DNA of 47,354 bases, taken from a virus. This document shows positions 1 to 47,354 of the stretch, one piece after another. A program made the translations under genes and the position numbers. The stretch lies in IMG/VR virus record IMGVR_UViG_3300027971_000073, positions 1 to 47,354 of that record. One strand, given 5' to 3'. The first letter of the stretch is position 1; every line of letters begins with the position of its first letter. The notes under the pieces were generated by a model. It was not told the origin of the DNA. It saw nothing but the letters and a program-made list of their open reading frames with translations, and searched no databases.

Positions 1-128
1 TTCTGCTTCAGCATTTCAACGCGAAGTTGACGATCTTCATCTTCAACAGCCTGAGCCCTTTCTGCGTCCGCATAGTACTTCTCGCTCCAAGGCATTGTGA
101 CCAATGGTCTTTGGATTCTGTCTGCCAT
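1..128 (-). CDS. Internal virion protein, partial (version A, N-terminus only)
   Basis: The first 42 codons of a gene whose remainder lies beyond the left edge. Its translation begins MADRIQRPLVTMPW and matches the N-terminus of the complete 321-residue protein at 38192..39157; the two DNA copies differ by one base in 128. The start ATG is at 128. It lies immediately downstream of the 593-residue internal virion gene, as in version B. Its presence here is the main evidence that the left edge cuts through a repeat of the right part of the window. Confidence 0.85.
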   Translation of the reverse strand, partial: MADRIQRPLVTMPWSEKYYADAERAQAVEDEDRQLRVEMLKQ

Positions 129-132
129 AATA

Positions 133-1914: not shown

Positions 1915-1915
1915 A

Positions 1916-2467
1916 TTAAATCTCTCCAGACTGATATTTCTTAGTCGTAACCTTCTTGGCTTCTTCGTTCCTTGCTAACACATCTGAAATGTTTGTTGTG
2001 TACTCTGGAGTAAGGATAGGTTGTGATATGCCAGCCGTGTAATTAACTGGAGCCACACCTCCGCCCATTGCGACTTCTCGCTCAACCGAGGTTTCTGGTC
2101 CTTGACCATAAGTTCTAGCGAATTGGGCTGTAAGCTGATTGCCTAATGCGCGGTTTAAGGAATAAGCCTGTGGGCTGTACTCATACTGCCTGCGAAGACC
2201 CTCGAGCGTCCTTTGCCCACCGTACTGACGCTCAAGCTGTAGCCCGGTCTGGACCTGGGCTTGTTGGTCGGCTGCGGAAAGTTGACGTTCTAGTTGGCGT
2301 TGTTCGGGCATATACTTGATGCGAAGAGCATTCTCAAGCGCAGCGATGTCTGGAGACTTTTCAATATAGGTTTCAAGCGAAGAACGATAGAATAGCGCAT
2401 TTGCCTGCGCAGATTTCATCGGGTCAGGGGGCGGAGGGGGAGATGGAATTGACGGAGCGCCACCCAT
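1916..2467 (-). CDS. Small internal virion protein with proline-rich N-terminus (version A)
   Basis: 183 residues. It opens with MGGAPSIPSPPPPPDPMKSA, then a charged helical region (residues 20-100) rich in Gln, Glu and Arg, and a Gly-rich tail. No enzymatic motif is visible. The ATG shares a base with the stop of the upstream 122-residue gene, so the two are translationally coupled. Location between the nozzle gene and the large internal virion proteins suggests a virion-core or ejection component. Version B at 40895..41446 has the same length and the same proline run. Confidence 0.7.
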   Translation of the reverse strand: MGGAPSIPSPPPPPDPMKSAQANALFYRSSLETYIEKSPDIAALENALRIKYMPEQRQLERQLSAADQQAQVQTGLQLERQYGGQRTLEGLRRQYEYSPQAYSLNRALGNQLTAQFARTYGQGPETSVEREVAMGGGVAPVNYTAGISQPILTPEYTTNISDVLARNEEAKKVTTKKYQSGEI

Positions 2468-2835
2468 TATCGTAGTGCCCTTCTCATAAACTTCATAAAA
2501 TCGTAACTCCTTGGTGTTCCAGAACGGTTAAACGTAATACGCTTACGGATGCCAAAACGCTCCAAAAGGAGCACCAACAGGCACCTCAAGGAGATAGCAC
2601 CCTTTGAGGATATCGTCAAGTCTACGAACACATTCTCCCCATCCTCAGAATGAACGTAGTGATCTGGCTTTTCTCCGTCCTTTAGGCACCTGGCAAGAGC
2701 TATCCCGGCAATTCCGTCAGAATCTTTGACAATGCCGACCAAACCCTGCCTCTCGAACCAATTAAACCAATCAGCTAGGTTGTGCCACATGCCCTCCGGC
2801 ACACCGGACGCTTCAATGTATTCTATAGCGGTCAT
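2467..2835 (-). CDS. Small GNAT-like or chaperone-like protein (version A)
   Basis: 122 residues, translated from an ATG that overlaps the stop of the nozzle gene (2832..2835). A central beta-rich stretch (residues 40-75, containing VGIVKDSDGIAGIALARCL) is followed by a helix and basic C-terminus, an order reminiscent of small acetyltransferase folds. I cannot point to a certain acetyl-CoA loop, so that assignment is tentative. It sits between nozzle and internal virion genes in both versions and is about equally conserved, which suggests a morphogenesis role rather than a passenger gene. Confidence 0.55.
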   Translation of the reverse strand: MTAIEYIEASGVPEGMWHNLADWFNWFERQGLVGIVKDSDGIAGIALARCLKDGEKPDHYVHSEDGENVFVDLTISSKGAISLRCLLVLLLERFGIRKRITFNRSGTPRSYDFMKFMRRALR

Positions 2836-4682
2836 AGCGATTTCTGGATCTCGATTGTATCTGGATTTGCGGCTGCAGTAATTTGCCTGACTGCCATCTT
2901 CCCGGCCGCGCTAGTTATCTTGACGTTAAGAAGTCTCCACTTTTCGTACTTTCTGAGATCGCTCGCAATCTTCTTTTTGACGCTAGTCGGAAGAATTGCC
3001 GGAAGCTGGAAATCCAGCGTAAGAACTGAACTGGCAATATTCAGATTCGGTTGAACTTCAACGTCGCCAACATCTATGTCCCTCTGTATCGTTATGGTCG
3101 TATCAGTCGAGTATGAGTCGTCAAATATTACCTCGAAATGCGAGCCATATTTTAGCGAGAACGGATCTCCAAAATTAAAGTCCTTTGTTCTGACTGAGGA
3201 TTCATACGAATCTCCATTGTCGGCATAATCCGAAGCAGTCAGCGCAGCCGGAGACTTGTATCCAAAGTACTGAAGAATCAATCCTGTTGTAGATTTTCCT
3301 GCCAGCCGAAGACCCTGCGAATCAAAATTTGTAAGCGCAAACTGCATGATCTGAGGGGTCCAGGTACCCTCAAAAGCGCTCAAAGCAGTATTATATACCA
3401 ACATCGTATCGTTGTAGTCATTCGATCCTGTTGGGAATGCCAGGAAATATCTGTTGTCGTAGAACATTGCCGTAGATATATCGATCTTTGCCGGGTTTAT
3501 GGTCTGGATAACATCCTTTACAACCTCTGATATTGGTATTCCAATTGAGCTAAAATCGTCGGCAGCCGACCTTACCAAGGATCGAATTCCATTGTCCGAA
3601 AGAAAGAATATGTCGCTACTCACCTGGACCGCGGTGTTCCCGGCTACGCACCCGGTGTTGTTCGATATAAGCGAGATCGTCCAATCCGCAGCAGTCGTCA
3701 TTGTTTCCGGGACCTCCACCTGGAACACTCTCCTGTTTTTGAATACAATAATTCTGTTCTGATAGTATGGAACGATCGCAGTAATTTCGTCTCCGTCGTC
3801 TCCGTTAATCACAGCACTGTTGGCCGAGTCCCACACCGACGCGTCAAGTATGTCTGAGCAGTACAGTGTATTGCGGTGGATTCCAGACCCAACGCCAAAC
3901 AATCTATTCCCGGTGTTTATGATAATCCTTAGATCCACAGGGGGAGTGCTCACTGTTGCCGTTGCTGTGGCTCCGGAACCGTCGCCAATTATTGTCACGC
4001 TCGGGGTCCTGGCATATCCAGATCCTCCGTCTACAACTACAACTCCTGTCACCGCGCCCCCAGCTACAGTTGTGGTCACGGAAGGAGCAGTCCCGGTTAG
4101 GCCAGGATACTCAACCAACGCGGTTGCGGAGGTGTAGCCAGACCCTCCGGACGTGACTGTGATTGCCCTTAGCTTGGCACCCTGCCTGGTTACCGTTGTG
4201 CCATTAAATAAATGAAGATCTCCGTCTCCGTCGACAGCGTACATTTTGTCGTTGAACTGAGCCATTGAAACAGGGGCGTCGACTGCAGAAGAAAATCCGT
4301 CCTCCCATTCCGTGCTCCTATTGTCCCATAGTACGCTCGCAGATCCCCACTCCTGGTCCGCAGCGTGTGCTTCAGCGCTTCCATTTGAGTTTATGCTGTA
4401 AAATGTTCCTTGCGTTACGGTCAGCAAATATTCGTTCGCCGCGGTATCGTAGTACCTCATGCCACCAACTGAGCCGATCGCACTTGTGGCAGTTGTGCAG
4501 AATGCTGTTGCCCCGGTCCTGGTCTCCAGGTTGCCCTTTGGAGAAAGGGTCATATTGACCAATTGACTTACCTGGTTCTCTGCTAGTAGATCAGACTGCA
4601 GTCCGCTCGCCTGTCCTCCGGAGAAGTTCCGGATTCCCTCGAACGACAGGACGTCATCCAAATTGTCTTGGAAGTACGGCAC
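2832..4682 (-). CDS. Tail nozzle / tubular-B-like protein (version A, 616 aa)
   Basis: 616 residues beginning MPYFQDNLDDVLSF. The sequence is almost all beta-strand with Gly/Ser/Thr-rich turns, including two similar segments around residues 180-245 (AGGAVTGVVVVDGGSGY type). The style, length and place directly after the adaptor gene fit the long beta-propeller nozzle (T7 gp12-like) of short-tailed phages. It would form the distal tube through which DNA leaves. Version B (41811..43661) has exactly the same length but clearly diverges, especially at residues 60-170. Start ATG is 3 bases from the adaptor stop. Confidence 0.75.
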   Translation of the reverse strand: MPYFQDNLDDVLSFEGIRNFSGGQASGLQSDLLAENQVSQLVNMTLSPKGNLETRTGATAFCTTATSAIGSVGGMRYYDTAANEYLLTVTQGTFYSINSNGSAEAHAADQEWGSASVLWDNRSTEWEDGFSSAVDAPVSMAQFNDKMYAVDGDGDLHLFNGTTVTRQGAKLRAITVTSGGSGYTSATALVEYPGLTGTAPSVTTTVAGGAVTGVVVVDGGSGYARTPSVTIIGDGSGATATATVSTPPVDLRIIINTGNRLFGVGSGIHRNTLYCSDILDASVWDSANSAVINGDDGDEITAIVPYYQNRIIVFKNRRVFQVEVPETMTTAADWTISLISNNTGCVAGNTAVQVSSDIFFLSDNGIRSLVRSAADDFSSIGIPISEVVKDVIQTINPAKIDISTAMFYDNRYFLAFPTGSNDYNDTMLVYNTALSAFEGTWTPQIMQFALTNFDSQGLRLAGKSTTGLILQYFGYKSPAALTASDYADNGDSYESSVRTKDFNFGDPFSLKYGSHFEVIFDDSYSTDTTITIQRDIDVGDVEVQPNLNIASSVLTLDFQLPAILPTSVKKKIASDLRKYEKWRLLNVKITSAAGKMAVRQITAAANPDTIEIQKSL

Positions 4683-4685
4683 CTA

Positions 4686-5384
4686 CTAAACTCCTATATC
4701 TGTAATGCTGTACTCACCCAAACTCGAAGGAGTGATTACCTTTATCCCTCCGACCTGGCTCATCTCATACTGAGCCATCTGCGCCAGGTCAGCATTCGCG
4801 GTTGATACAACTGCCTGGGCCTTGGCGTACTGACGCTCGCGCTCAAGGGCGTCTGCATGGGTAAGGGCAAGGACAACGTGCTGGACGTGCGGAAGTCTCA
4901 ATTCGTCATCTAGGGCAGGCTCGCTAGGCGGAAACTCTACAATGTTGTTCTGCCTTGTGATGCATGTCAGTTTTTCAATTACCTTGATCGTAGTCGTGCT
5001 CGTCGTGTTCAACAGTGGATACAGATCGATCTCGGCAGTGCCGGACGTGTTCCGGCCCTTAAAGTAATACTGAGTCGGAGTCCCAGTCCGGTCGTTATCG
5101 AGGAGATCCGCGTCCTGGCTAATGATCGTCTGCATGTCGACAGAGAGAAGTTCGCTGTCTCCGTATGCAACGGAAAGCGGGTTTTCGACCAGGGAACCAA
5201 GAGTGATCGTCCTGCTAGCTGTAGACACTGAGTACGTCGAGTTTGTTATGCTCTCTCGCCATGGGGCGAAGTTCCAGACCCTGCGATAGTTTAAGCTGGC
5301 AGACTTCTCCAGGAACGTAAGCGTATCGGAGTCAGTCTTCCCAACTTTCTCTCCTGCGAATTGTGCGATTTCAGATAGAGTCAT
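4686..5384 (-). CDS. Head-tail adaptor / tubular-A-like protein (version A)
   Basis: 232 residues, a typical size for T7 gp11-like adaptors that dock under the portal and carry the nozzle. Helical N-terminus (residues 1-35), beta-rich middle, and a long C-terminal helix pair including THADALERERQYAKAQAVV, as in phage adaptor proteins. Version B (43665..44363) has identical length and is roughly 90% identical by eye, making this one of the more conserved proteins of the duplicated module. Its start overlaps the end of the 91-residue gene by 14 bases. Confidence 0.75.
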   Translation of the reverse strand: MTLSEIAQFAGEKVGKTDSDTLTFLEKSASLNYRRVWNFAPWRESITNSTYSVSTASRTITLGSLVENPLSVAYGDSELLSVDMQTIISQDADLLDNDRTGTPTQYYFKGRNTSGTAEIDLYPLLNTTSTTTIKVIEKLTCITRQNNIVEFPPSEPALDDELRLPHVQHVVLALTHADALERERQYAKAQAVVSTANADLAQMAQYEMSQVGGIKVITPSSLGEYSITDIGV

Positions 5385-5646
5385 TTACAGGCTCCTGTGG
5401 TGCTGGTTCTGGCTCCGGGATAGGCTCCAGGTTAAATCTTTCAAAAACCTCTCCGTCGATCTCTTCGGTGTAGGCCCCGGTGACCCGGTATCCCGCTGGG
5501 ACGCTGGCTGGAGTATAAGGCTTAATACCTACTTCAGCAAGTTGCTCCTTGCTCCAGCACCAGAAGATGCTGGCTGGATGGTTGACATCGCCAATGCGGA
5601 TGCCTTCGGGTTGACGGATGATGTTATTTTCGGTTGTGATCCACAT
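5371..5646 (-). CDS. Small tail-associated protein (version A only)
   Basis: 91 residues, starting MWITTENNIIRQPEGIR and ending in a Pro/Glu-rich tail. A GGAG Shine-Dalgarno sequence lies just before the ATG at 5646. It is placed directly after the 765-residue receptor-binding gene, where phages often encode a fibre chaperone or short fibre accessory. In version B this position is occupied by an unrelated 141-residue gene, so it travels with the receptor-binding protein. No catalytic motif is visible. Confidence 0.6.
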   Translation of the reverse strand: MWITTENNIIRQPEGIRIGDVNHPASIFWCWSKEQLAEVGIKPYTPASVPAGYRVTGAYTEEIDGEVFERFNLEPIPEPEPAPQEPVNDSI

Positions 5647-5655
5647 AGTTACTCC

Positions 5656-7953
5656 TTATCTTGCTCTTGCGTATTTGAATGGTGATTCGGCGAAAGCTGC
5701 AAAAATAAATGTTACTCCAGATTGATTCGAATCAAGATTTGTTGATCTCAACTTAAATCCATTTGATAAAATATCCATTGTATTAAAAGTCACTCCACCA
5801 ATGCTACTTCCATTTTCTTCTTGAGAATTATTTGGAGCAAGTTTTAAGGTAACCAGATTTTCTGTGCTTCTTGCTGTGTCATAAATTATCCAAGCAAGAC
5901 TACTTTGAGTTGTCTTTATCATTACAAATCTCGGCCTAAATCCGCAATATGCAAGCGGACCATCTGCTGCGCCATTGCCTGTGTAAGTTCCAAATTTACT
6001 AAATCCATCAACTTCGGCAAATAGATAGGCGATGTATGTGTCTGCGTTTGCATTAACAGCTACATTTGTTCCAACTGAAAACACGCTAGACGTTGGGCTG
6101 GTTGAGTTCCAGTAGTCTGCTCCAGCGGATGTTGATGATGTAGAATTTAGCTGAAGATATGTAGTATTCGCAATAGACGTATGCCATACAGGCCAGCCTT
6201 GATCTGCGCCAGCCGTTGTTCTGGCCTTAACGATAACCATCTTTGGGGCAACGCCCAATGTGTGCGCAATAGTTCTATTTGCTCCGTTGCCAGTATAGCT
6301 AACAACATCAAGTCCTGCTTGTGTTGACTCATCCCAAGCCCAAGCCACATACTGCGTGCCAGTAGTGTTTACAAGCGTGCTTGTTGAAATCGTAAATCCG
6401 TTTGATCCAAACGCAGTAAGTCCGCTTGAGCTTGTTACTTGATCTCCAGTTGTGTCGCTGGAAAGCTGTGATTGAGTTCCCCTTGTTGTGTCATAAATAG
6501 CGTGGCTTGTCGCTCCGCCGCGATTCTTAATCCACACCAGGTCGGGGCTAAAGCCAAGACTAGAAATTGAGTTGGATGCGCCTGTGCCAGTGTAAGCAAC
6601 TACATCCATTGCAGTGCTTGGCTTCTTGATTGTAGGAGTCGTAAGGTTGGTTGTGCAGAGTGCCTTGAAACCAGTTGGCGGAGCATATCTCCACGTTTGC
6701 TGACCAAAGTTCATCGTTACATCATTCGCAGATGTTGAACTTCTTCCGCTTGTTGCAAAATAATATGGACCGCTTGTGAGGGATGTATATGCAGTTCCTT
6801 GTGAAGTTCCGTTTTTATAGAAAACAAGAGTTCCAGCACTTGCGTCAAACGCTACTCCAATTGTGTCTCCATTTGTGTATGAAGATCCATAAGAACTTGA
6901 TGATGCATTGTTATATTTTAATCCATTGTAATAATACCCCCAACTATCTGAAGATGACCCAACATAAGTATTCATTATGTTTATGCCTTGCGAAATACCA
7001 GCAGAACATTCGGCTCCAAGAGCAGTAACGTACATTTCGCAATACCACTTTCCAGATGTCATTCCAATTGTTGAGATTGATCCGCGATCTCCAGCATTTG
7101 TTCTTAAATTTCCGTCAATAATTGTGCTTCTTATGGTGCTTACTGGATTTAATGTGGCGTAATTACCCCTGACCTCCCCGCCAACTCCAGTGTCTGTTCC
7201 GTAATTTGTTGGACTGTCCACCAAACTATCGTTTGCAACCTTGTCGGCAAGAGTGCTTGTTGCTACGGAGAAATTGTTCGGAGTCCAGTTGTTGCCATTT
7301 GGGCTGGAGTCCTTGCCAAGTGTGGCTGCTGTATTGTTGCTATTATCCGCAAACTTCAAGTAAAACCCATTTGTTCCGTACGTTCCTGCGTATGCTTTAG
7401 CCTTCCATCGTCCTGTTATTGCATCGGTCTCTCCGAAGCTGGATGGGGTTAATGCTTGTCCGTCTATAAAGTTGATTTCGGTTAGGTAGCCATTAAAATA
7501 GCTTGCTGTATTGGCCGCACCCAATTGATGGGCAACTGCTGTGTTAAAAGTATTGCTAGTTGCCGTGGCAGTGCCAACGCTCACACCATTCACATAAAGC
7601 GTATGTGATGTTCCATTCTGCGTCCAAACAATGTGATACCAAGCAGATGGATCTCTAAATAAAGCTGTTGTTGTTAATGCGCTTGAAGCTGCAAATGTAA
7701 GATTTAGCGCATCTCCAGTTGTGAATCCAAAGCTATGATTTGTTGATACTCCAAAAATTTGTTTTGTTGCTCCAAGTAATCCTAACTTCACCCACAATGA
7801 AAGGGTAAATATTGATTGTGATGTTGGAGTTGAGAGCGTTCTATTTAAGTATGCTGAATCACCAGAATTGAACCGCAAGCTACGTTCAACTCGGTATGCA
7901 TCATTATCGCCTTGCGCTCCAAGCAGGCCGTTTGGATGGACAGGCCAGGGCAT
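5656..7953 (-). CDS. LamG/SPRY-type receptor-binding tail protein (765 aa, version A only)
   Basis: 765 residues. Residues about 40-200 look like a LamG / concanavalin-type lectin domain (FTLSLWVKLG, AWYHIVWTQNG, YVNGVSVG). Residues about 300-415 look like a SPRY-type domain (GKWYCEMYV, GDTIGVAFD). The rest is built of three related beta-sandwich repeats with YTGTGAS / YTGNGAN / YTGNGAA openings and ends in AAFAESPFKYARAR, a C-terminus I recognise from many phage tail proteins. This suggests surface glycan binding. It is absent from version B. Base composition is more A+T-rich and more Asn/Thr/Ser-rich than neighbours, consistent with recombination. Confidence 0.8.
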   Translation of the reverse strand: MPWPVHPNGLLGAQGDNDAYRVERSLRFNSGDSAYLNRTLSTPTSQSIFTLSLWVKLGLLGATKQIFGVSTNHSFGFTTGDALNLTFAASSALTTTALFRDPSAWYHIVWTQNGTSHTLYVNGVSVGTATATSNTFNTAVAHQLGAANTASYFNGYLTEINFIDGQALTPSSFGETDAITGRWKAKAYAGTYGTNGFYLKFADNSNNTAATLGKDSSPNGNNWTPNNFSVATSTLADKVANDSLVDSPTNYGTDTGVGGEVRGNYATLNPVSTIRSTIIDGNLRTNAGDRGSISTIGMTSGKWYCEMYVTALGAECSAGISQGINIMNTYVGSSSDSWGYYYNGLKYNNASSSSYGSSYTNGDTIGVAFDASAGTLVFYKNGTSQGTAYTSLTSGPYYFATSGRSSTSANDVTMNFGQQTWRYAPPTGFKALCTTNLTTPTIKKPSTAMDVVAYTGTGASNSISSLGFSPDLVWIKNRGGATSHAIYDTTRGTQSQLSSDTTGDQVTSSSGLTAFGSNGFTISTSTLVNTTGTQYVAWAWDESTQAGLDVVSYTGNGANRTIAHTLGVAPKMVIVKARTTAGADQGWPVWHTSIANTTYLQLNSTSSTSAGADYWNSTSPTSSVFSVGTNVAVNANADTYIAYLFAEVDGFSKFGTYTGNGAADGPLAYCGFRPRFVMIKTTQSSLAWIIYDTARSTENLVTLKLAPNNSQEENGSSIGGVTFNTMDILSNGFKLRSTNLDSNQSGVTFIFAAFAESPFKYARAR

Positions 7954-7959
7954 TGGAGG

Positions 7960-8973
7960 TTACGAGAAGTTCTGGCTAGATACTCCGTAGAGTACAGTTC
8001 CGTTTGTTACAAAGGAAAGAACGTCAACTTGCGCTGATCCAGTAGAAAGAACTGGAGCTACCCCACCAGTAAACTTGTACGCTGTGCTAAATGAAAGAGT
8101 ATTATTCCCGCCAGTGCCTTGCGTCACAATCATCACATAGGTGCACCCAGCCTGCGGGTTGGTCGGCGTGTTCATTGTTGAGTTTGTTGTTACAGTAAGC
8201 GTAGCAACCTGGTTCTGCGACAGATCCCAAGGAACAGTTCCGCTTGTGATTGTCAACGCTGTGGCTGCAAAGTTATGCGCTCGGCTATATTGCTGTGCAG
8301 TATTAAGAACAGCAATTCTGGTTCCTACTGTTGCCGATCCTGTGCTGATCGTTAGGTCGCCAGTAAGAGTAGTCGTGAAATTGCCAATCGTCCCGGTCGT
8401 GCTGTTCAAAGTTCCAATTGTTCCAAGCGTCGAATTGACGGAACCACTAAAGGTTCCTCCTGTGAGATTGGACGTGAGTGTGGAGCTTGTTAGCGTCTGA
8501 ACTGTGCCACTTGTAATGTTCGCAGCTGTTCCAGTTATAGTCCCGGATGTTAAAGTTGGAATTGTGCCAACAGTAATCGTGGCAGCTGTGGATGTTGTGG
8601 TTCCAAATGTTCCGCTAGGGATAAGTGCCGTGGCAATCGTCCCATTCGTAATCTCAGCGCTAGTGCTGATTGACCTATTCCCGGTGACGGTTCCAAGGCT
8701 CAGGACTCCTGTAAAATTGGCATTGGTATACGTTCCGCCTGTCAGTGCATCGTCAAACAAGTTTAAGACGGTTGTCTGTCTTGGGGCGACCCCGGACGAT
8801 AGGCTCGCGTCGTCAATCATGATCTTGTCGTCGGTTGCGACAGCGGTCAGTGAGGTCTGGTCTCTAATTAAAGACTGATAGACGTCTAGTCCGTCGACCA
8901 GGTTGTGAAGCGCGGCCGCGGTTACGGTGCCGTTCGTTGCGAACGTTTGAGAACGATTGAATTTGATGCCCAT
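7960..8973 (-). CDS. Repetitive tail fibre protein (version A, 337 aa)
   Basis: 337 residues. The N-terminus (1-95) is non-repetitive and matches version B, so it is probably the virion-attachment part. The middle (about 95-215) is made of Gly-Thr repeats such as SGTIGTLNSTTGTI, a spacing typical of beta-helical fibre shafts. The C-terminus (about 220-337) contains Thr/Ser-rich beta strands and differs completely from version B, which fits a receptor-facing head. It lies between two other fibre genes. Confidence 0.75.
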   Translation of the reverse strand: MGIKFNRSQTFATNGTVTAAALHNLVDGLDVYQSLIRDQTSLTAVATDDKIMIDDASLSSGVAPRQTTVLNLFDDALTGGTYTNANFTGVLSLGTVTGNRSISTSAEITNGTIATALIPSGTFGTTTSTAATITVGTIPTLTSGTITGTAANITSGTVQTLTSSTLTSNLTGGTFSGSVNSTLGTIGTLNSTTGTIGNFTTTLTGDLTISTGSATVGTRIAVLNTAQQYSRAHNFAATALTITSGTVPWDLSQNQVATLTVTTNSTMNTPTNPQAGCTYVMIVTQGTGGNNTLSFSTAYKFTGGVAPVLSTGSAQVDVLSFVTNGTVLYGVSSQNFS

Positions 8974-8974
8974 A

Positions 8975-9670
8975 TTAAGTTGTAAACCTCATTGCGGTTG
9001 CAAAGAACGTGCCAGCAGGAATTGTCCCGGCAGTCGCGCCTTGGTTCTGAATTGAGTAACGAACGACATTTGTTGCCGTCGGATAAAGAGATAATCCAAC
9101 ATTAACCGTTCCAGTAGTTGAACCTAGCGAGTTCAATGAGCCGATAACAATATCACCAAGTGCCGCGCCAGTTAGAGTAAAGGTTCCAGTTGTAGCGTCT
9201 GCTCCGTTATGTGCGCTAACTGTAGCAGAAGTGAAAGCTGCTGTTCCAAACGAAGCATTGGTTATGTTGGGACCAGTAGCGCCAATCTCAAGCGTACCAA
9301 CTGTCACAAGCCCTGTATTGGTAATCGTGGTCGAAGCAATCGTGCCGATCGTCGCAGTGCTGATTGTGGCAGTGCTGATTGTAGCAGTGCTGATGCTGGC
9401 AGTACTGATGCTGGCAGTGGCAATCGTTGTCGTGCCTGTTGAAAAGGTATTGCTAGATCCAAACGTGACTGGGCCTAGGAGTCTGGAGGCTCCGTCCACT
9501 GCAAACGTGCCACTGCTCTTTACCCCGGTCGTAGATATCTGAAGGGCCGAAACTCCAGCCTCGTTGCCACTGGACACGGCCGCGAGCGTAGGTCCGACAA
9601 TATCGCTACCAAACGTCTTTAGGACCTGGCTATAGCTTGTGCTGATATTCTGTGTGCCAAGTGTTGCCAT
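8975..9670 (-). CDS. Repetitive tail fibre protein with STATI repeats (version A, 231 aa)
   Basis: 231 residues. The first 75 residues match version B closely. Next come tandem five-residue repeats of the type STASI/STATI (about residues 85-107), then Gly/Thr-rich beta repeats, and a C-terminus ending AGTFFATAMRFTT that is again shared with version B. Conserved ends around a variable repeat centre suggest a short trimeric fibre whose length varies by repeat number. Its ATG overlaps the stop of the upstream membrane-protein gene (TAATG at 9670). Confidence 0.75.
   Translation of the reverse strand: MATLGTQNISTSYSQVLKTFGSDIVGPTLAAVSSGNEAGVSALQISTTGVKSSGTFAVDGASRLLGPVTFGSSNTFSTGTTTIATASISTASISTATISTATISTATIGTIASTTITNTGLVTVGTLEIGATGPNITNASFGTAAFTSATVSAHNGADATTGTFTLTGAALGDIVIGSLNSLGSTTGTVNVGLSLYPTATNVVRYSIQNQGATAGTIPAGTFFATAMRFTT
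9354..9413 (-). repeat. Four 15-base tandem repeats coding STATI-type pentapeptides
   Basis: Four consecutive 15-base units, each beginning GCAGT on the plus strand, at 9354, 9369, 9384 and 9399. They encode the STASI/STATI repeats of the fibre. The corresponding place in version B (46472..46501) has only two units, so copy number has changed between versions. The unit is a multiple of three, so slippage keeps the frame. Confidence 0.9.
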
Positions 9671-9897
9671 TAGTGATTTATCCTGTTTTTGACCAGGTCC
9701 CAGGCAACGGAAAACAGTAGCCCGGCGACCCCAGCAATTGCGAATATCCTGGAACGGAGGTGCTCCAGGGCAGAAACTCTATTTACCACATCTGCGTAGT
9801 TTGACAAGCTGGTCTCGACCATGTTGTACAATTGGACCTGGCGCTCTTCCATCCGGGCCAGCTTGACCTCTATGCCCCACACCTGGTCTTCACTCAT
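9670..9897 (-). CDS. XhlA-like coiled-coil membrane protein, possible holin accessory (version A)
   Basis: 75 residues from the ATG at 9897 (MSEDQVWGIEVKLARMEERQ). A charged amphipathic helix covers residues 5-50, followed by one membrane segment (about residues 52-66, IFAIAGVAGLLFSVAWDL) and a short basic tail. This helix-plus-C-terminal-anchor layout is that of hemolysin XhlA-type phage lysis proteins. A longer upstream start at 9951 would run through the preceding gene and has no match in version B, where translation starts at the same MSEDQ. It overlaps the 90-residue gene by 8 bases. Confidence 0.65.
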   Translation of the reverse strand: MSEDQVWGIEVKLARMEERQVQLYNMVETSLSNYADVVNRVSALEHLRSRIFAIAGVAGLLFSVAWDLVKNRINH

Positions 9898-18364: not shown

Positions 18365-19924
18365 TTATCCCCCGACATCCCAGCCGGACATTTCGTTGTC
18401 CGCGGATGCCTGCTTCATTAGTTCAAGCAAAGATGGACGCGTGTATGCCATTGTCAAGTCGTAGTCAATCCCCGAGTTATCGCATGCCATCGCAACCGCG
18501 TCGGCCCTGTCCGGAGATGCTACTCCCCTGGACCGCATCGCGTCTTTCGACTCCAGGCCCAGCTTCCCGCGGGACGTGGCTTGAGCTCTCCTGGTCACTA
18601 GTTGGCTTTTGAGAATATCGTCTTCGGGCAGTATGATGTCGCAAGTGTCGATCTTTCTGGCTAGTCGGTGCCACATCTCGGAACCCTTGTTCTGGTACGC
18701 GTCGTTGTCCCTAGCGTTGCCACCAAAGTTAATCCGGTTCACGGTCCACCCGGCTTCGTTCAGCGCGTCGCACATCGGCAGACCCAGGCCCCCGGCATCG
18801 GCGAATACTTGTTCCGGCTTAACCCCGGCTTTCTTTAGCTCCATAATAATCCGCCCGACCGTTGCCATTGTGTCCCTTTCGCGCCATGTGATCAGTGGCA
18901 GGATTCGGTTGCCCTCCCGGATTGCGATCACGTTCTCGTCGCCACCCGCGGAAAAGTCGATGCCAGCTGCCCTGTCTGTCCCATTAGGGACAGGAGGGTT
19001 GTTTACGCAATTGTCGTAGCTGCCCAAGCTCACGACTAGGCGCTCTTCGCCCAGGTCCATAAATTCTGCCTTGAGCATCGACTGAGTAAATGGGCTGTTG
19101 ATGCCATAGCGTTGTTGAATTTCTTGTATGTACAAAGGGCTGATATGGGGACAGTCCCAGGCGGTCGCTCGGGTCTTTTTCCACAGATCTGCCTCCTTTG
19201 TAAAGCATCGGTAGAACTGACCTACCGGAGCCCCCGGCGAACTGGCGACTAGTAATCTAGTTGGTTGGCACCGAAACACTGAAACGTAGATCGGATCTTG
19301 GACGGTCTTGGCCTCATCGACGACGTACAGAAGGGGAGCGCTTTCATGGTTCGCAGCGTGGAAACCCTCCGCTCGGCCTGCTGATTCGTTGTCATTGCCT
19401 GCTGTAAACCCCAAAATTCGGCTTATACGCCCCGAGGCGTGCTTGAAGCGGATTTCCCCACTGGTGACCTCAACCATGTCCCCGAAGGGCCTTAGAAGGG
19501 CTTTAATCGCAGGCCAGAGCACGGATTCGACCTGGCGATATACCGACGCAGTAACGACTGACAAAGACTCCTCAAAGCATACCATGTGCCAGACTAGGGC
19601 CGGGGCGATGACATTTGACGTCTTGCCGGAACCGTTCGCAGCCACCAGCGCTACCCGGCTATAGATCGGGGCCAGGTTATTCATGACCTCCTTTTGCCAG
19701 GGGTATAGATTCAATCTGAGCACACCCTCCGCGAATCCTGCCGGGGTAGCTTGTTCGTCAACCTTCGATGCCGGGCCGGGTTTCGATGACCCCTTTTTAT
19801 TTCTAGCCGAATTTCTGAGGGGGGTCGCGCGCGCGCGCGCGCGTGTGGGGGGCCCACCGGGGGGGGTGTCGTGGGGGGTCGGATTTTCCTGGGGTGTCGT
19901 CTTCACAATTTTATTGACTTCCAA
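18365..19924 (-). CDS. terL: Terminase large subunit
   Basis: 519 residues. The ATPase half has a Walker A AANGSGKT (residues about 95-102), a Walker B with LLYVVDEAKT (D203, E204) and a coupling-type segment VASSPG. The nuclease half has RNase-H-like acidic positions in GIDFSAGGD (D323), VFADAGG (D376) and SPDRADAVAMA (D472/D475). It would pump DNA into capsids and cut concatemers. The N-terminal 60 residues are Pro/Arg/Lys-rich and include RARARA encoded by a (CG)9 tract. It follows terS by 33 bases. Confidence 0.9.
   Translation of the reverse strand: MEVNKIVKTTPQENPTPHDTPPGGPPTRARARATPLRNSARNKKGSSKPGPASKVDEQATPAGFAEGVLRLNLYPWQKEVMNNLAPIYSRVALVAANGSGKTSNVIAPALVWHMVCFEESLSVVTASVYRQVESVLWPAIKALLRPFGDMVEVTSGEIRFKHASGRISRILGFTAGNDNESAGRAEGFHAANHESAPLLYVVDEAKTVQDPIYVSVFRCQPTRLLVASSPGAPVGQFYRCFTKEADLWKKTRATAWDCPHISPLYIQEIQQRYGINSPFTQSMLKAEFMDLGEERLVVSLGSYDNCVNNPPVPNGTDRAAGIDFSAGGDENVIAIREGNRILPLITWRERDTMATVGRIIMELKKAGVKPEQVFADAGGLGLPMCDALNEAGWTVNRINFGGNARDNDAYQNKGSEMWHRLARKIDTCDIILPEDDILKSQLVTRRAQATSRGKLGLESKDAMRSRGVASPDRADAVAMACDNSGIDYDLTMAYTRPSLLELMKQASADNEMSGWDVGG
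19826..19843. repeat. (CG)9 dinucleotide tract inside terL
   Basis: Eighteen bases of uninterrupted CG repeat, followed by G-runs, in the 5' part of terL where it encodes the RARARA linker at residues 28-33. Loss or gain of one unit would frameshift the terminase gene. Such tracts are also error-prone in replication and sequencing. The open frame is intact in this copy. Confidence 0.9.
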
Positions 19925-21132: not shown

Positions 21133-21336
21133 TCAGTCCAGTTTGATGGGTCGAAACGATGCCACCGGGAGCTCTTTCCCGGCCCAATTCCTGTTCCCTT
21201 TAGGCGCCCCACCCTTCTTGCCATTAGCGATCGACGCCTTGGCCTTAGCCTCCGACCTCACCTTGCCGATCCTGGACGCGAATAACGCCACCGGGACCTC
21301 ACATTTACAGTTAGGACATTCAATTGATTGACTCAT
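21133..21336 (-). CDS. Small basic CxxC protein downstream of the Mom-like gene (67 aa)
   Basis: 67 residues from the ATG at 21336 (MSQSIECPNCKCEVPVALFA), which overlaps the Mom-like stop as ATGA and has GGAGG upstream. A CPNC pair plus one more Cys may bind metal. The C-terminal half is basic, with SIANGKKGGAPKGNRNW, a pattern common in DNA-binding phage proteins. An upstream in-frame ATG at 21381 lies inside the Mom-like gene and is less likely. It is the last gene of the early block. Confidence 0.6.
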   Translation of the reverse strand: MSQSIECPNCKCEVPVALFASRIGKVRSEAKAKASIANGKKGGAPKGNRNWAGKELPVASFRPIKLD

Positions 21337-21881
21337 TCTTGCCTCCATTCTTTCCATTCTTTCCAGTTTTGTATCTCCCATTTCAGCAACGCCTTGTCCT
21401 TCTGATTGCAGAAATAGACAAACCTATGCTTCCTAGTCCGCGGAACGATCACTGCCTCTTCCATGGTCCGCGAGTGCCTGCTGTGCTTGTTGCCGACCAC
21501 CTTGTCACCGGAAGATCTCTTGTCAGATAGTCCGGTGTAGATCCAGTTGGTTGCCGAGTAGATCATTCCATTGTGCCCGGCCCCGGTGTCTGCATAGCTA
21601 ACCAGGATCAAGTACGGTCGCAACTTTGTTAACTCTCGAATGCTCCAGGATATGAATCTGCTTTCAGAGTTCTTAGGGCACCGATCGTCGAGCCACAATC
21701 TGTTCAACTCGTAGACCCTGGACGCATTCTCTGCCCCGCATATTCCCCTACATAGATGGGGCGACGCGGGTTTGCCGAACGAAATCACGCCTAGCAGTTC
21801 ACTGCCATGGAAGCATCCGAACGACCAGTTGCAAGGCACGGCCCGGTGCGCGTAGTGGTTGGCGACGACTACTTCATTCAT
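21333..21881 (-). CDS. Mom-like DNA adenine modification enzyme
   Basis: 182 residues from the ATG at 21881 (MNEVVVANHYAHRAVPCNWS). The segments HYAHRAVP, LLGVISFGKPASPHLCRGICG (in parts), YELNRLWLDD (57-66), NSESRFISWSIREL and SYADTGAGHNG (95-105) match the Mom family (phage Mu Mom-type, GNAT fold), which converts adenine to a carbamoylmethyl form and protects phage DNA from restriction. The in-frame upstream extension to 22121 runs through the tRNA-like gene and the preceding gene, so it is not used. Confidence 0.8.
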   Translation of the reverse strand: MNEVVVANHYAHRAVPCNWSFGCFHGSELLGVISFGKPASPHLCRGICGAENASRVYELNRLWLDDRCPKNSESRFISWSIRELTKLRPYLILVSYADTGAGHNGMIYSATNWIYTGLSDKRSSGDKVVGNKHSRHSRTMEEAVIVPRTRKHRFVYFCNQKDKALLKWEIQNWKEWKEWRQE

Positions 21882-21912
21882 CGTCTTTGACCCTATGGAC
21901 CGGAATTTAAGT

Positions 21913-21988
21913 TGGAGCGCAGAGGTAGGAATTGCACCTCCGTTCTCCCCTTGGAATAGGGGAAGTTCTACTACTGAACTATCTGCGC
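21913..21988 (-). tRNA. tRNA-Gly(UCC)-like gene with an 8-base anticodon loop
   Basis: 76 bases that fold as a cloverleaf: 7-bp acceptor GCGCAGA/TCTGCGC, then TCCA with encoded CCA; 4-bp D-stem GTTC/GAAC; anticodon stem TCCCC/GGGGA. The loop is TATTCCAA, eight bases, one more than normal; anticodon would be TCC (Gly). The T-stem GGAGG/CCTACC needs a bulged A, and the T-loop TGCAATT has G instead of the usual T at position 55. The D-loop AGTAGTA has A where G18 is expected. It fills the gap between two genes exactly, ending 32 bases before the Mom-like ATG. Confidence 0.75.
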
Positions 21989-21994
21989 GTAAAC

Positions 21995-22267
21995 TCACCA
22001 TGTCCCCATCTCGTCGATGAACCCGATCGTCTTGTCCCGGCGATCCTTCAGCACTGCCAGAAGCCTGTCGGTCATGTCGACCTCGGACAGCATGGAGTTT
22101 CCTCCTATGCAACTCCCGCACCTATTGAGGTAGGTCAGGATCTTGGGCTTGTTGCTGGCGGACTGATTGATCTCACAGATTCCGTAGTCGTTCCCGGACC
22201 GATAATACTTGCCCGGGACCATCTGCTCAAACGTCAGTTCACCCTCCTCTTCGGAGTAATACTTCAT
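21995..22267 (-). CDS. Hypothetical protein (90 aa)
   Basis: 90 residues from the ATG at 22267 (MKYYSEEEGELTFEQMVPGK), supported by GGAGG 6 bases upstream. An acidic N-terminus precedes a short beta part with CEIN and CGSC cysteines and a C-terminal helix. The stop lies 7 bases before the tRNA-like gene. It overlaps the 26-residue membrane peptide gene by ATGA. Not recognised; membership in the small-gene operon is the only clue. Confidence 0.6.
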   Translation of the reverse strand: MKYYSEEEGELTFEQMVPGKYYRSGNDYGICEINQSASNKPKILTYLNRCGSCIGGNSMLSEVDMTDRLLAVLKDRRDKTIGFIDEMGTW

Positions 22268-38191: not shown

Positions 38192-39157
38192 CTAACGGCT
38201 TGGGATTACTTTTCGAGCGCGAGGATCGTATCCGCCAAATCCGGACTGACTCATCGGTTGCGATTGCTGTTGCATTGGGGCCTGGTACGGCTGTTGTGCC
38301 TGAGCCGGAGCAGTTGCGTCTTCCCTGTTCCTCTTTGGCAATTCAATTGTCCTGCCGGAAATTCTTTTGTAGTCGTTGGCCTTAATGTCAAGTCGATCCC
38401 TCAGCATCTTAATTCCTTCGAGGGTCGTCGCAGTTCTTGGCCCAGCAATCGGCAGATCTAATCCAGGAACCTCAACCGGACTTGTTCCCAATGCCATCGT
38501 CTCTAGGAATGATTTGACTTCACTTTCTCTTGCGACAGATCCTGGGTCAAGCGCCTTGGCTAAAGCCACTGCAAGGAAATACGGTTTTTGACGAAGGGCT
38601 GCGCTTCCTTCTGGATTTGATATTTCGTAATTGCCGTATTTCTTAACCATGTCCTCAAGCTCGTCTGCTAGCCTGTAGGCGTCGGTGGCATTCATCTCAA
38701 AAGCAACATCGGCAGCGGTCAATTCCTTGCCCTTGGCCTGGATGGACTTTTTCGCCATGTCGACCGTTTTCATCTTCATGTCCCTCTTGATCGGATCAGT
38801 TTCCAGCCCTGCCATTCTTTCGTATCTGGCAACTCTGTCCATCATGCCCTCAAGATAGTTATACTGGTCCTCTTCCGGTGTTCCGGATGGAACATTCAGG
38901 CTAGTTCCGGGAATTGTTGTTGTGCCAGTTGTCTCGTAAAGAGTCTGCATTAGCGCAGCCCTTCTTGCCGAGTCTGTGGTCTGCATTAATTCTTCTGCAG
39001 CCTTCTGGGCAGTATCTGCTGGATAGAGTTTCTGCTTCAGCATTTCAACGCGAAGTTGACGATCTTCATCTTCAACAGCCTGAGCCCTTTCTGCGTCCGC
39101 ATAGTACTTCTCGCTCCAAGGCATTGTGACCAATGGTCTTTGAATTCTGTCTGCCAT
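38192..39157 (-). CDS. Internal virion protein (321 aa)
   Basis: 321 residues starting MADRIQRPLVTMPWSEKYYA. Strongly helical and acidic (about 10-170), with a Gln/Pro-rich C-terminus (QAQQPYQAPMQQQSQPMSQS). No catalytic motif. It lies between the 1429-residue ejection protein and the 576-residue virion protein, a place for inner-core components. Its first 128 bases are repeated at the left edge of the window. The start ATG at 39157 is followed by four bases to the next gene. Confidence 0.7.
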   Translation of the reverse strand: MADRIQRPLVTMPWSEKYYADAERAQAVEDEDRQLRVEMLKQKLYPADTAQKAAEELMQTTDSARRAALMQTLYETTGTTTIPGTSLNVPSGTPEEDQYNYLEGMMDRVARYERMAGLETDPIKRDMKMKTVDMAKKSIQAKGKELTAADVAFEMNATDAYRLADELEDMVKKYGNYEISNPEGSAALRQKPYFLAVALAKALDPGSVARESEVKSFLETMALGTSPVEVPGLDLPIAGPRTATTLEGIKMLRDRLDIKANDYKRISGRTIELPKRNREDATAPAQAQQPYQAPMQQQSQPMSQSGFGGYDPRARKVIPSR

Positions 39158-39161
39158 AATA

Positions 39162-40892
39162 TTATCCTATCTTGCTGTCCATCCACTTCCGGATGATTGC
39201 TTTTATTTTGGGTTTGTTGCGTATTGACTTGGCAATTCTTTCTCCGTATTCGAGATAGAAGTTTCTCAAGTTGTCTGATGCCTTTGTGAACATCCACTCC
39301 CTAAATTCAAGCCACTTAGGATTGTCGGCACCGTAAACCTCCCGGGCCACCCAACATGCAAACACTCCGCTAGTTCCGGACATTCCACCGATACCCTTCA
39401 AGATATCTCCACCAGCGCTCAAGTAGTTTGGAATAGAATTCGCCACAGCAACGCGAGACAGCGCGTCGACGTAAGATCCGTACTTGTTTGCCTCCGCTGA
39501 CTGCATGGTGTTGTAGATACTTCCAGCCTGTCCGGACATTGTGACAGGGATCGAAGGATCTGTGGCCGCGTAGAAGTTGAGAGGATTGCCCTGGGTCTGG
39601 AACGATCCTGGCATGGCCTGGTTTGCTTGGATGTATCCCTGGAACTGCGCGTTCTGCTGGCCGAGCCTTTGGTTTGCCAGGTTGTAAACAGAAGGGCCAC
39701 CAGCAACGAATCCAGCCGCGGCGCCAAGTCTGCTCTGTTGGAGATTATCGCGGAGCAGAATGTCCCGAGCAGCGGCTGCGCCTGTAGTCTCCCCGGAGCC
39801 TAGGAACTGCTGTGCAGAGTTGAACCTGGCCAGCTTTCGAGCTTCTCCGGCTGCTCCAATCTGAGCTGCTTCCTGCACTGCTGGTCCAAGACCGAAAACG
39901 TTTCCACGCGCGGACTGCGCCGACCGGATCGCCTGTTCGTACCCACGACGCTCTTCCTGGCCGATTGTAGATCCAAGTCTCAACTGGTTGAGTGCTTCCT
40001 CCTCGATTGCGCTTCGGAGTTGCTCGGTCTGTGGGGTCGTTGTAGGACCAACAGGAGCTGTAGCCATTTCACGGTACTGGCGACCAAGTCCAACCGCGGC
40101 CTGGTACGACTCAGGATCGATCTGGCGGAGCTGATCACTGGCTCGTTCTTCCGGTAACTTTGCGTACTCACGGAACGACGTGATCTGCTTCAATCCTTCT
40201 GCATCATTGGCATTGATCGGAGTAAAGTTGTCGACCTGGCTTTGCGCCTCGGTGATTGCCTTCTGAACACTTTCAAGATCTGCATTAAGCTGATCGATCG
40301 ACGCCCTCGCAACTGCTCGTTGAGGATCTTTGGCTGAGAATTGATCGTAAAGGTCTTGAGCTGTCTTCAGCCTGTTATTGATTCCAACAACCTGAGAATT
40401 TCCGTCCGCAACAATTCTGTTGAGCCTGTCCACCTTTGTCTTGTTAAAATCATTAATGATATCTTGGTCGGAAACCTGGAAATTCAGCTTGGTTGAAATG
40501 TCCGATCCTGCTCCCTGGTATCCACCCTGGTCGATTCCAAGGCCCTGATCGGTAGTCTGAGTCCTTGCTCCACCCGCGGTGAGCCCGGCAATCTGTTCCG
40601 CCAGGCTTCTACCCCTAGCCTCGTTGTTCAAGAATTCGTTTATCTTCGCGTCTACCGAGGCACTCCCGGCCTTCCTGGCTTCGTTCACGGCATTGATAAA
40701 AGAGTCCTGCTCCTTCGAAGAGTAAGAATTAAGATATTCGGAAAGCGACTGGGATTTCGTCCCGGCCCACATTTCGTTCCCGGTTGTTTTCTCCTCGAAC
40801 TGAATGTCTCCGTTTTTGTCGGTGTAGTACTCTTTGTACGTAATCGTTCCGCGCTTCGGATCACTCTGCTGTGGATTAAAACTTGCTGCCAT
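39162..40892 (-). CDS. Internal virion / ejection-type protein (version B, 576 aa)
   Basis: 576 residues, the version B partner of 133..1914. N-terminus MAASFNPQQSDPKRGTITYK differs completely from version A, whereas from about residue 110 on the alignment is clear and the CWVAREVYG C-terminal block is almost identical. The same Gln/Ala helical architecture is visible. The independent N-termini suggest recombination inside the gene. Confidence 0.75.
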   Translation of the reverse strand: MAASFNPQQSDPKRGTITYKEYYTDKNGDIQFEEKTTGNEMWAGTKSQSLSEYLNSYSSKEQDSFINAVNEARKAGSASVDAKINEFLNNEARGRSLAEQIAGLTAGGARTQTTDQGLGIDQGGYQGAGSDISTKLNFQVSDQDIINDFNKTKVDRLNRIVADGNSQVVGINNRLKTAQDLYDQFSAKDPQRAVARASIDQLNADLESVQKAITEAQSQVDNFTPINANDAEGLKQITSFREYAKLPEERASDQLRQIDPESYQAAVGLGRQYREMATAPVGPTTTPQTEQLRSAIEEEALNQLRLGSTIGQEERRGYEQAIRSAQSARGNVFGLGPAVQEAAQIGAAGEARKLARFNSAQQFLGSGETTGAAAARDILLRDNLQQSRLGAAAGFVAGGPSVYNLANQRLGQQNAQFQGYIQANQAMPGSFQTQGNPLNFYAATDPSIPVTMSGQAGSIYNTMQSAEANKYGSYVDALSRVAVANSIPNYLSAGGDILKGIGGMSGTSGVFACWVAREVYGADNPKWLEFREWMFTKASDNLRNFYLEYGERIAKSIRNKPKIKAIIRKWMDSKIG

Positions 40893-40894
40893 AA

Positions 40895-41446
40895 TTAAAT
40901 CTCTCCGGCTTGATACTTTCTTGTCGTCGCCTTCTTTGCCTCTTCGTTTCTAGCCATGACGTCTGCTATGTTTGTGGTGAAGTCTGGAGTGCCAATCGAA
41001 GGAGCGATCCCGGCAGTGTAATTAACAGGAGCAACTCCTCCTCCCATAGCAACGCGAGGATCGACCTCGGAGTACGGAGACTTTCCGTAAGTGCGCTCGA
41101 ACTGGCTCGTCAGTTGCTTGCCCATGCCCTTGTTCAAGGCATATGCTTCCGGGCTATACTCGTACTGCCTACGGAGTGTTTCGAGCGTCCTTTGCGGTCC
41201 GTACTGGCGCTCTAATTGCAACGCAGTTTGAACCTGGGCCTGTTGATCGGCCGCTGACAATTGGCGCTCAAGTTGACGTTGTTCCGGCATGTACTTAATC
41301 CGTAGAGCATTTTCTAGGGCTGCGATATCCGGGGATTTTTCAATATACGTTTCCAGGGAAGACCTATAAAACAAGGAATTCGCCTGGGCCGATTTCATCG
41401 GATCGGGAGGCGGTGGAGGCGAAGGAATAGATGGCGCGCCACCCAT
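40895..41446 (-). CDS. Small proline-rich internal virion protein (version B)
   Basis: 183 residues, identical in length to 1916..2467. The MGGAPSIPSPPPPPDPMKSA start and MPEQRQLERQLSAADQQAQV helix are conserved exactly, while the C-terminal half shows many substitutions. The ATG is coupled to the 122-residue gene. Conservation of the proline run in both versions suggests it is functionally important. Confidence 0.7.
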   Translation of the reverse strand: MGGAPSIPSPPPPPDPMKSAQANSLFYRSSLETYIEKSPDIAALENALRIKYMPEQRQLERQLSAADQQAQVQTALQLERQYGPQRTLETLRRQYEYSPEAYALNKGMGKQLTSQFERTYGKSPYSEVDPRVAMGGGVAPVNYTAGIAPSIGTPDFTTNIADVMARNEEAKKATTRKYQAGEI

Positions 41447-41814
41447 TATCGTAGTGCCTTTCTCATAAACTTCATAAAATCATAACTCCTGGATACCCCG
41501 GAACGGTTAAACGTAATACTCTTGCGTATGCCAAAACGCTCCAACAGGAGCGACAACAGGCATCTCAAGGAGATAGCACCCTTTGAGGATATCGTCAAGT
41601 CTACGAATATGTTGTCTCCGTCCTCGTGGTGAACGTAGTGATCCGGCTTTTCTCCATCCCTTAGACACCTGGCGAGGGCCACCCCGACTATCTCGTCCGA
41701 GTCTCGGACTATGCCAACCAGGCCCTGTTTTTCAAACCAGTTAAACCAGTCAGATAGGTTGTGCCACATTCCTTCCGGGACTCCGGATAACTCGATGTAC
41801 TCTATGGCCGTCAT
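41446..41814 (-). CDS. Small GNAT-like or chaperone-like protein (version B)
   Basis: 122 residues, same length and layout as 2467..2835, beginning MTAIEYIELSGVPEGMWHNL. Differences are mainly conservative (for example VGIVRDSDEIVGVALARCLR instead of VGIVKDSDGIAGIALARCLK). Coupled to nozzle and small virion genes in the same way. Confidence 0.55.
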   Translation of the reverse strand: MTAIEYIELSGVPEGMWHNLSDWFNWFEKQGLVGIVRDSDEIVGVALARCLRDGEKPDHYVHHEDGDNIFVDLTISSKGAISLRCLLSLLLERFGIRKSITFNRSGVSRSYDFMKFMRKALR

Positions 41815-43661: not shown

Positions 43662-43664
43662 GGA

Positions 43665-44363
43665 CTAAACTCCTATGTCTGTGATGCTGTATTCGCCTAA
43701 ACTTGACGGTGTGATGACCTTTATTCCTCCGACCTGGCTCATCTCGTACTGAGCCATCTGCGCCAGGTCAGCATTTGCGGTCGACACAACGGCCTGTGCT
43801 TTTGCGTACTGACGCTCCCGCTCCAACGCGTCTGCGTGAGTGAGTGCAAGCACGACATGCATGACGTGAGGAAGTCGGAGCTCGTCATCTAGGGCCGCCT
43901 GGCTAGGTGGAAAATCAACCGTGTTGTTGCTCCTTGTGACGCATGCCAGCTTTTCGATCACCTTGAGAACCGTTGTACTGGAAGTATTGAGAATAGGGTA
44001 AAGATCGATCTGGGCTGTTCCGGATGTATTACGACCCTTGAAATAATATTGGGTCGGAGTTCCGGTCCTGTCCGAATCGAGAAGATCGGCGTCCTGACTA
44101 ATAATTGTCTGCAAGTCTACCGACAGAAGCTCGCTGTCTCCATACGCAACGGAAAGAGGATTCTCAACGAGCGAACCTAGCGTGATTGTCCTGGTCGAAG
44201 TTGAAACAGAGTATGTGGAGTTTGTTACGGTCTCTCTCCACGGAGCAAAGTTCCAGACCCTGCGATAATTAATGCTGGCAGATTTCCCAAGAAAAGAGAG
44301 CGTGTCGGAGTCGGTCTTCCCAACCTTCTCCCCGGCGAATTGGGCGATTTCGTTTAGAGTCAT
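43665..44363 (-). CDS. Head-tail adaptor / tubular-A-like protein (version B)
   Basis: 232 residues, identical in length and roughly 90% identical by eye to 4686..5384. Differences cluster in the beta-rich middle and are conservative. As the most conserved pair in the module it sets the minimum relatedness between the two versions and shows they descend from one gene rather than from unrelated phages. Confidence 0.75.
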   Translation of the reverse strand: MTLNEIAQFAGEKVGKTDSDTLSFLGKSASINYRRVWNFAPWRETVTNSTYSVSTSTRTITLGSLVENPLSVAYGDSELLSVDLQTIISQDADLLDSDRTGTPTQYYFKGRNTSGTAQIDLYPILNTSSTTVLKVIEKLACVTRSNNTVDFPPSQAALDDELRLPHVMHVVLALTHADALERERQYAKAQAVVSTANADLAQMAQYEMSQVGGIKVITPSSLGEYSITDIGV

Positions 44364-44371
44364 TGCTGGAC

Positions 44372-44797: not shown

Positions 44798-44798
44798 G

Positions 44799-45884: not shown

Positions 45885-45885
45885 A

Positions 45886-47250: not shown

Positions 47251-47354
47251 TTGACATTACCAGCGTCTTCAGCCGCGCCCATAGTCGGTACATTGGGATA
47301 TTTTGTGTGGGGCATAGCATTATTATCCGCTGGCTTGGGCGAGCAGGAGCAGAG
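47247..47354 (-). CDS. Small lipoprotein, partial (version B)
   Basis: The last 35 codons of the partner of 10159..10293; the start lies beyond the right edge. It begins LCSCSPKPADNN in the window, keeping the lipobox, then differs through the middle (MPHTKYPNVPT) and rejoins version A at MGAAEDAG and the ending GNVK. Stop overlaps the 90-residue gene start by ATGA. Confidence 0.65.
   Translation of the reverse strand, partial: LCSCSPKPADNNAMPHTKYPNVPTMGAAEDAGNVK

Follow-up and report, generated by a model that had tools for sequence, protein, structure and literature searches.

What is a complete tRNA doing inside the coding sequence of a phage DNA modification enzyme? The question is raised by the window analyzed here (i.e., the whole stretch of 47,354 nucleotides, positions 1 to 47,354 of IMG/VR virus record IMGVR_UViG_3300027971_000073), in which an RNA resembling a glycine tRNA lies in its entirety, and in frame, within the 5' end of a mom open reading frame (ORF). 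Comparisons with related viral contigs established, at the level of sequence, a real and selected tRNA fold, its in-frame overlap with mom, and its near-exclusive linkage to mom genes. On this basis, we infer the processing and charging of the RNA, its exclusion from translation, its role as a donor, and the chemistry that follows. The element is probably a functional tRNA-Gly that is dedicated to Mom, is kept off the ribosome, and supplies glycine for DNA modification.

A tRNA-Gly-like RNA within the mom ORF

The following features are referred to throughout.

21913-21988, minus strand: tRNA-Gly(UCC)-like RNA of 76 nucleotides (nt) with an encoded CCA (RF00005; covariance model R1; 37 distinct homologues)
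21913-21915, minus strand: encoded CCA, next to the discriminator U73 at 21916
21924-21941, minus strand: T-arm, with a bulged A at 21926 between positions 63 and 64 and with G55 at 21935
21951-21958, minus strand: 8-base anticodon loop UAUUCCAA, read from the sequence and of the same length in 37 of 37 close homologues
21953-21955, minus strand: anticodon UCC
21969-21975, minus strand: D-loop AGUAGUA, with A18, the partner of G55, at 21972
21333-22001, minus strand: mom gene of 222 amino acids, starting at ATG 22001-21999 or GTG 21998-21996; the tRNA occupies its codons from about 21986 to 21913
21913-22001, minus strand: Mom N-terminal extension encoded by the tRNA (MVSLRADSSVVELPLFQGENGGAIPTSALQ), predicted to be disordered

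Segmented by structural element, the tRNA reads GCGCAGA TA GTTC AGTAGTA GAAC T TCCCC TATTCCAA GGGGA GAAC GGAGG TGCAATT CCTACC TCTGCGC T CCA. The sequence agrees with an earlier sequence-only reading, which had described perfect acceptor, D, and anticodon stems, an encoded CCA, an anticodon loop of eight bases with one extra base ahead of U33, and changes in both partners of the elbow (A18 and G55). The extra base leaves the UCC anticodon intact. Two features went beyond that reading, namely, the bulged A of the T-stem (GGAGG/CCU-A-CC) and the in-frame location of the tRNA within the beginning of mom. The element shares with canonical tRNA-Gly(UCC) (RF00005) the cloverleaf, U73, CCA, UCC, and the core contacts between the D- and T-arms (U8-A14, 15-48, and G19-C56, as in elongator tRNA-Gly). 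It differs from the canonical form in its A18-G55 elbow and in lying in frame within an ORF, and it has neither an unbroken 5-bp T-stem nor the elongator-type 7-base anticodon loop with U33.

A further difference is that tRNA finders handle the phage form poorly, and the check with such programs that had been proposed gave a divided answer. ARAGORN reported no tRNA in the window. The Rfam tRNA model RF00005 matched positions 21988-21917 of the minus strand at 33.5 bits (cut-off, 29), and our own covariance model, R1, scored the element at 100.4 bits. The Rfam match was the sole RNA-family match above the Rfam cut-off in the window and the only tRNA detected there by ARAGORN and Rfam together. 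Standard tools mostly miss these tRNAs in other records as well: ARAGORN reported 1 of 35 loci, with no amino acid assigned, and the Rfam tRNA cut-off was passed in 5 of the 12 bulged-tRNA loci tested.

The product of the surrounding ORF was assigned to the Pfam Mom family (PF25680; E = 6e-39) and to PHROG 1384 (Mom-like). AlphaFold2 predicted a core with the GNAT/Mom fold (predicted local distance difference test [pLDDT] score, >90), for which the best structural match was Mu Mom (8bv8), a member of the same family. All residues from 1 to 26 but one had pLDDT values of <50. Residue S124 of Mu Mom, mutated in the "inactive mutant S124A" structure 8bv8, aligns with S113 of the window protein, a position occupied by Ser in 20 of 21 aligned Mom sequences and by Thr in the other. 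Phage Mu differs in having no such tRNA, and its mom gene is controlled by Com.

Whether mom truly begins ahead of the tRNA was judged from the close family (76 loci, plus one locus cut by a contig end). The apparent start codon ATG at 21881 is not kept, since several relatives have CTT or CTC there. In 73 of the 76 loci, an in-frame ATG or GTG stands exactly 10 or 13 nt ahead of tRNA base 1, often overlapping the stop codon of the preceding, variable gene, and no stop interrupts the frame from there through the tRNA into Mom. Because the Pfam Mom domain also starts immediately after the tRNA-encoded residues, we conclude that mom begins before the tRNA, which is nested in its first codons.

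Selection on the RNA in the close family

The close set consisted of 37 distinct, ungapped 76-nt sequences obtained by pattern and protein searches of viral contigs. A search with the Mom protein alone returned 35 loci, of which 34 carried the element upstream at a near-constant spacing; the 35th ends at a contig edge. The 76-nt element with its 8-base loop thus recurs in dozens of independent metagenome contigs, which argues that it is neither a chance occurrence nor a sequencing error. The sequence-only reading had suggested that homologues with normal 7-base loops would point to such an error; the close homologues all have eight bases, and the more distant ones with seven (described below) keep the bulge and the mom linkage.

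The fold is maintained in all of its parts. In the 37 homologues, 97.9% of stem cells were paired, compared with 43 to 53% in slid controls, and eight pairs showed double changes. U8-A14 and G19-C56 were each present in 37 of 37 sequences, and the 15-48 pair was A-U in 23, G-C in 13, and A-C in 1. The 18-55 pair was A-G in 29, G-U in 6, and Y-U in 2. G18 has therefore been lost in 31 of 37 sequences (A18 in 29 and Y18 in 2), with G19 kept, and the alternation of G-U with A-G indicates that the altered elbow is a co-varying replacement rather than decay. The bulged T-stem A was found in 37 of 37 sequences, and its flanking pair switches from A-U to C-G in step. The CCA was likewise encoded in all 37, although the neighboring U73 varies. 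The tRNAs of L116, L118, and L121 have A73 as the discriminator, perhaps a match to hosts with the other type of glycyl-tRNA synthetase (GlyRS).

An element that is also coding sequence may owe its conservation to the peptide, and a decayed tRNA could have been kept as material for an N-terminal extension of Mom, with selection on the amino acids. No stop codon interrupts the ORF within the tRNA in any of the 37 homologues, and the mom frame is the sole frame without stops in all of them, which favors such a peptide. However, four-fold degenerate sites differed in 13.6% of comparisons in the tRNA codons, compared with 53.8% in the mom core (40.3% in the lowest core window). Among close pairs, the corresponding values were 0.8% and 19.6%, with amino acid changes at 3.8% in the tRNA part and 2.1% in the core. 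The sites that are more conserved than the core are hence the silent ones and not the amino acids. Compensatory changes occur in all stems, the peptide is predicted to be disordered, and the element lies 3' of mom in other phages. In one group, the anticodon stem and consequently the peptide differ, yet the 8-base loop ([C/U][A/G]UUCCA[A/G]), the bulge, and the CCA are retained. These observations indicate that the RNA, not the peptide, is conserved, and the comparisons place the RNA structure under strong purifying selection. The peptide explanation, already contradicted, is left with almost negligible probability. The suggestion of a decaying tRNA or pseudogene fares no better, in view of the paired stems and conserved four-fold sites, with neither relaxed constraint nor broken stems.

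Linkage to mom genes across diverse phages

All 76 close-family loci run in frame into Mom, although their Mom proteins form eight subfamilies that share less than 60% identity (a representative of every subfamily was checked by profile). A wider set was collected from the tRNA alone, with a pattern that required UCCA followed by a bulged T-arm but not the fold, strand, or mom linkage. A viral scan gave at least 120 matching stretches; the 80 listed, together with the tRNA of Salinibacter phage B2_17, make up the 81 loci of this set. A mom gene was detected in 79 of the 81 by our own hidden Markov model and in one more (L283) once its record was extended, for a total of 80; the single locus without mom (L280) is a fragment. 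As a base rate, at least 326 of 50,697 cultured-phage records match the window Mom protein. The tRNA was on the mom strand in 79 of 79 scored loci. It is found either within the 5' part of mom or at the 3' end, in the latter case mostly sharing the final codons of the gene. Nearly all of the tRNAs overlap or abut mom, and a few do not overlap it. In three loci (L269, L294, and L326), two Mom genes stand in tandem, and it is the first of them that contains the tRNA.

Model R1, built from the initial 37 sequences, detected a single tRNA of this type at every one of 87 loci. Among 73 distinct wider-set sequences, 97.5% of cells were paired, with 438 double-change cells (at most 76 in slid controls), a value reached in none of 500 shuffles. 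The top of the acceptor stem is nearly fixed (G1-C72 in 73 of 73, C2-G71 in 72 of 73, and G3-C70 in 71 of 73), whereas the lower acceptor pairs vary freely. U73 was present in 79 of the 81 tRNAs. The anticodon loop had eight bases in 43, seven in 37 (20 of these without U33), and nine in 1. The distant homologues have 7-base loops, often without U33, yet retain the T-stem bulge and the linkage to mom.

These loops bear on the possibility that the RNA is a tRNA for translation, which would decode the glycine codons GGA and GGG, replace a tRNA destroyed by host defense, or act as a +1 suppressor. Phages often carry tRNAs, and the phage element has a tRNA fold and a UCC anticodon with U34 and A37. 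Eight-base anticodon loops are known in +1 frameshift suppressors, among them the sufD type of tRNA-Gly, to which the sequence-only reading had compared the element. In the phage tRNAs, however, the extra base lies 5' of U33 and outside the anticodon, the form is conserved over many phages, and the element is linked to mom and not to a frameshift site; a frameshift suppressor is not supported. The T-stem bulge falls within the EF-Tu contact region, U33 is absent from 22 of the 81 tRNAs, and the element is linked almost totally to mom and not to tRNA clusters. A role in decoding is decidedly unlikely. The same reading had also offered a specialized or a decaying tRNA. The specialized, non-decoding alternative gains from the linkage of the element to mom and from the conservation of the very features expected to interfere with decoding and EF-Tu binding; the decaying one is at odds with the purifying selection.

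Linkage could also arise if the element were a recombination or attachment site of mom cassettes, with the tRNA retained only as a homology arm. In one related phage group, different mom subfamilies do stand behind a constant tRNA and upstream region, the crossover falling at the 3' end of the tRNA. But the wide sequence divergence with compensatory change is the opposite of what a homology arm needs, and the element is also found downstream of mom (no systematic search for integrases beside it was made). We consider this explanation very unlikely. Descent of the element within a single phage lineage was rejected, since neither the terminase nor the capsid of the window had a detectable homologue in several near-complete carriers.

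A regulatory role deserves more weight. The element may mimic a tRNA within the mom mRNA, without ever becoming a free tRNA, and control mom in cis, through RNase P cleavage, binding of GlyRS or another protein, or blocking of ribosomes, to an end like that of the Com/TIS control of Mu mom. The in-frame overlap in the close family and the 3' overlap in many other phages are in its favor. RNA structure governs translation of Mu mom (PMC6483171), and artificially expressed Mom is toxic (PMC12707154). Against it, a single translational switch is ill served by an element that is 5' in some phages, 3' in others, and non-overlapping in a few. In addition, an mRNA hairpin needs neither the CCA, encoded in every close homologue despite the variable U73, nor the glycine identity pairs kept at the acceptor end. 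Control in cis is thus unlikely, although it is not a trivial alternative.

A putative glycyl donor for Mom

The Mu Mom product is alpha-N-(deoxyribosylpurin-6-yl)glycinamide, known since 1983 according to the entry for Swinton et al. listed in PMC3874153, and the source of its glycine-derived group is only assumed in the accessible literature. When a GNAT-fold enzyme with a one-glycine product is co-encoded with a tRNA-Gly whose glycyl identity elements are kept and whose EF-Tu and decoding surfaces are altered, the simplest reading is an enzyme and its glycyl donor. The linkage of tRNA and mom thus points to Gly-tRNA as the source of the group. We consider it reasonably likely that Mom is a Gly-tRNA-dependent DNA-adenine transferase and that many phages carry a ribosome-excluded tRNA-Gly encoded within mom.

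Under this model, host tRNA processing would cut the RNA out of the mom transcript, and the host GlyRS would charge it via G1:C72, C2:G71, U73, and C35/C36. Binding by EF-Tu and decoding would be prevented by the T-stem bulge (between positions 63 and 64) and by the 8-base (or U33-less) loop, and in the group of the window the A18-G55 elbow may contribute to this. Mom, as a GNAT-fold transferase, would then take glycine from Gly-tRNA and attach it at N6 of adenines in the phage DNA. The adduct would end as alpha-N-(purin-6-yl)glycinamide, of which N6-glycyladenine is an isomer, so that a rearrangement through the free amine would be required. The overlap of the two genes may couple tRNA and mom in horizontal transfer or balance the amount of tRNA against that of enzyme.

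The cell-wall tRNA-Gly of Staphylococcus aureus has changes at G18/G19 and weakened EF-Tu-binding T-stem pairs (PMC4052509), features that may be comparable to the loss of G18 in most of the close phage homologues and to their altered EF-Tu-binding T-stem. By analogy with the non-proteinogenic tRNA-Gly that serve as pentaglycine donors for FemXAB in Staphylococcus, the phage RNA may be a glycine tRNA for a non-ribosomal transferase, as its mom linkage suggests. Unlike in Staphylococcus, the phage T-stem is bulged rather than A-U rich (the weak A-U pairs 49-65 and 51-63 are not found, and 49-65 is G-C); any weakening would then be due to the bulge. The phage tRNAs also retain G19, their anticodon loops are larger than usual or have no U33, and their genes overlap that of the partner enzyme.

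Several observations weigh against a Gly-tRNA donor for Mom. Mu-type phages and about 50 other mom records have no such tRNA, so a phage-encoded copy is not strictly needed by Mom; those phages would have to draw on host Gly-tRNA. Foldseek placed Mom beside acetyl-CoA GNATs, with no special likeness to aminoacyl-tRNA transferases among the 50 matches listed. In the wider set, 17 of the 81 tRNAs have an ordinary 7-base loop with U33 and 38 do not encode CCA; the constancy of the bulge and UCCA there is not independent evidence, because the search pattern required them. One transcript cannot yield both the tRNA and a full mRNA where the two overlap, which also fits a regulatory role. Finally, in one review the Mom donor is taken to be an acyl-CoA, for example, glycyl-CoA (PMC7824862). 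Our search of the accessible literature turned up no publication that links Mom with Gly-tRNA; its scope did not extend to preprints or to most subscription papers, so prior publication is possible.

If Mom does use Gly-tRNA, this would be, as far as we know, the first case of a DNA base modification that depends on a tRNA and of a phage anti-restriction enzyme with a tRNA partner. The comparisons also define a widespread class of tRNAs, encoded in frame inside a protein gene and overlooked by standard annotation, and provide in the T-stem bulge a signature for finding further tRNAs withdrawn from translation.

Among cultured phages, BLAST searches with the window region and the window tRNA gave no matches, and other forms of the tRNA gave only short or unlinked ones. 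The exception was a divergent homologue (L117) that matched the annotated tRNA-Gly of Salinibacter phage B2_17, which lies just after the mom gene and has a bulged T-stem and a G replacing U33. One genome scan of GTDB for the element in hosts or prophages returned eight matches, all attributable to chance. A tRNA near mom in Methylophilales phage Melnitz-3 was discarded because its sequence reads as tRNA-Trp, as were those of JeffCo and phiSA_BS1 (Arg). Microbacterium phage Antuna (L382, 1138-1871) has an ordinary tRNA-Gly(CCC) 33 nt beyond mom on the opposite strand, possibly another form of the link between Mom and tRNA-Gly.

In two unrelated records, that of Salinibacter phage B2_17 (L261, record positions 19156-19745) and that of L303, a break near profile positions 130 to 150 divides the Mom domain into two pieces or two reading frames; sequencing error, decay, and a programmed frameshift are candidate explanations. 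Recoding of stop codons, which might account for an unusual tRNA, was rejected in the one frame examined, the L089 terminase frame with apparent internal stops, in which the stop precedes the start. The ends of the window (1-9676 and 39030-47354) repeat each other at 69 to 98% identity, with an offset of 38979 to 39029 over the first part and a shorter one further in. Sister contigs are 36 to 39 kb long, and the window is probably a genome of about 39 kb whose assembly ran on beyond the genome start into the sequence of a diverged strain.
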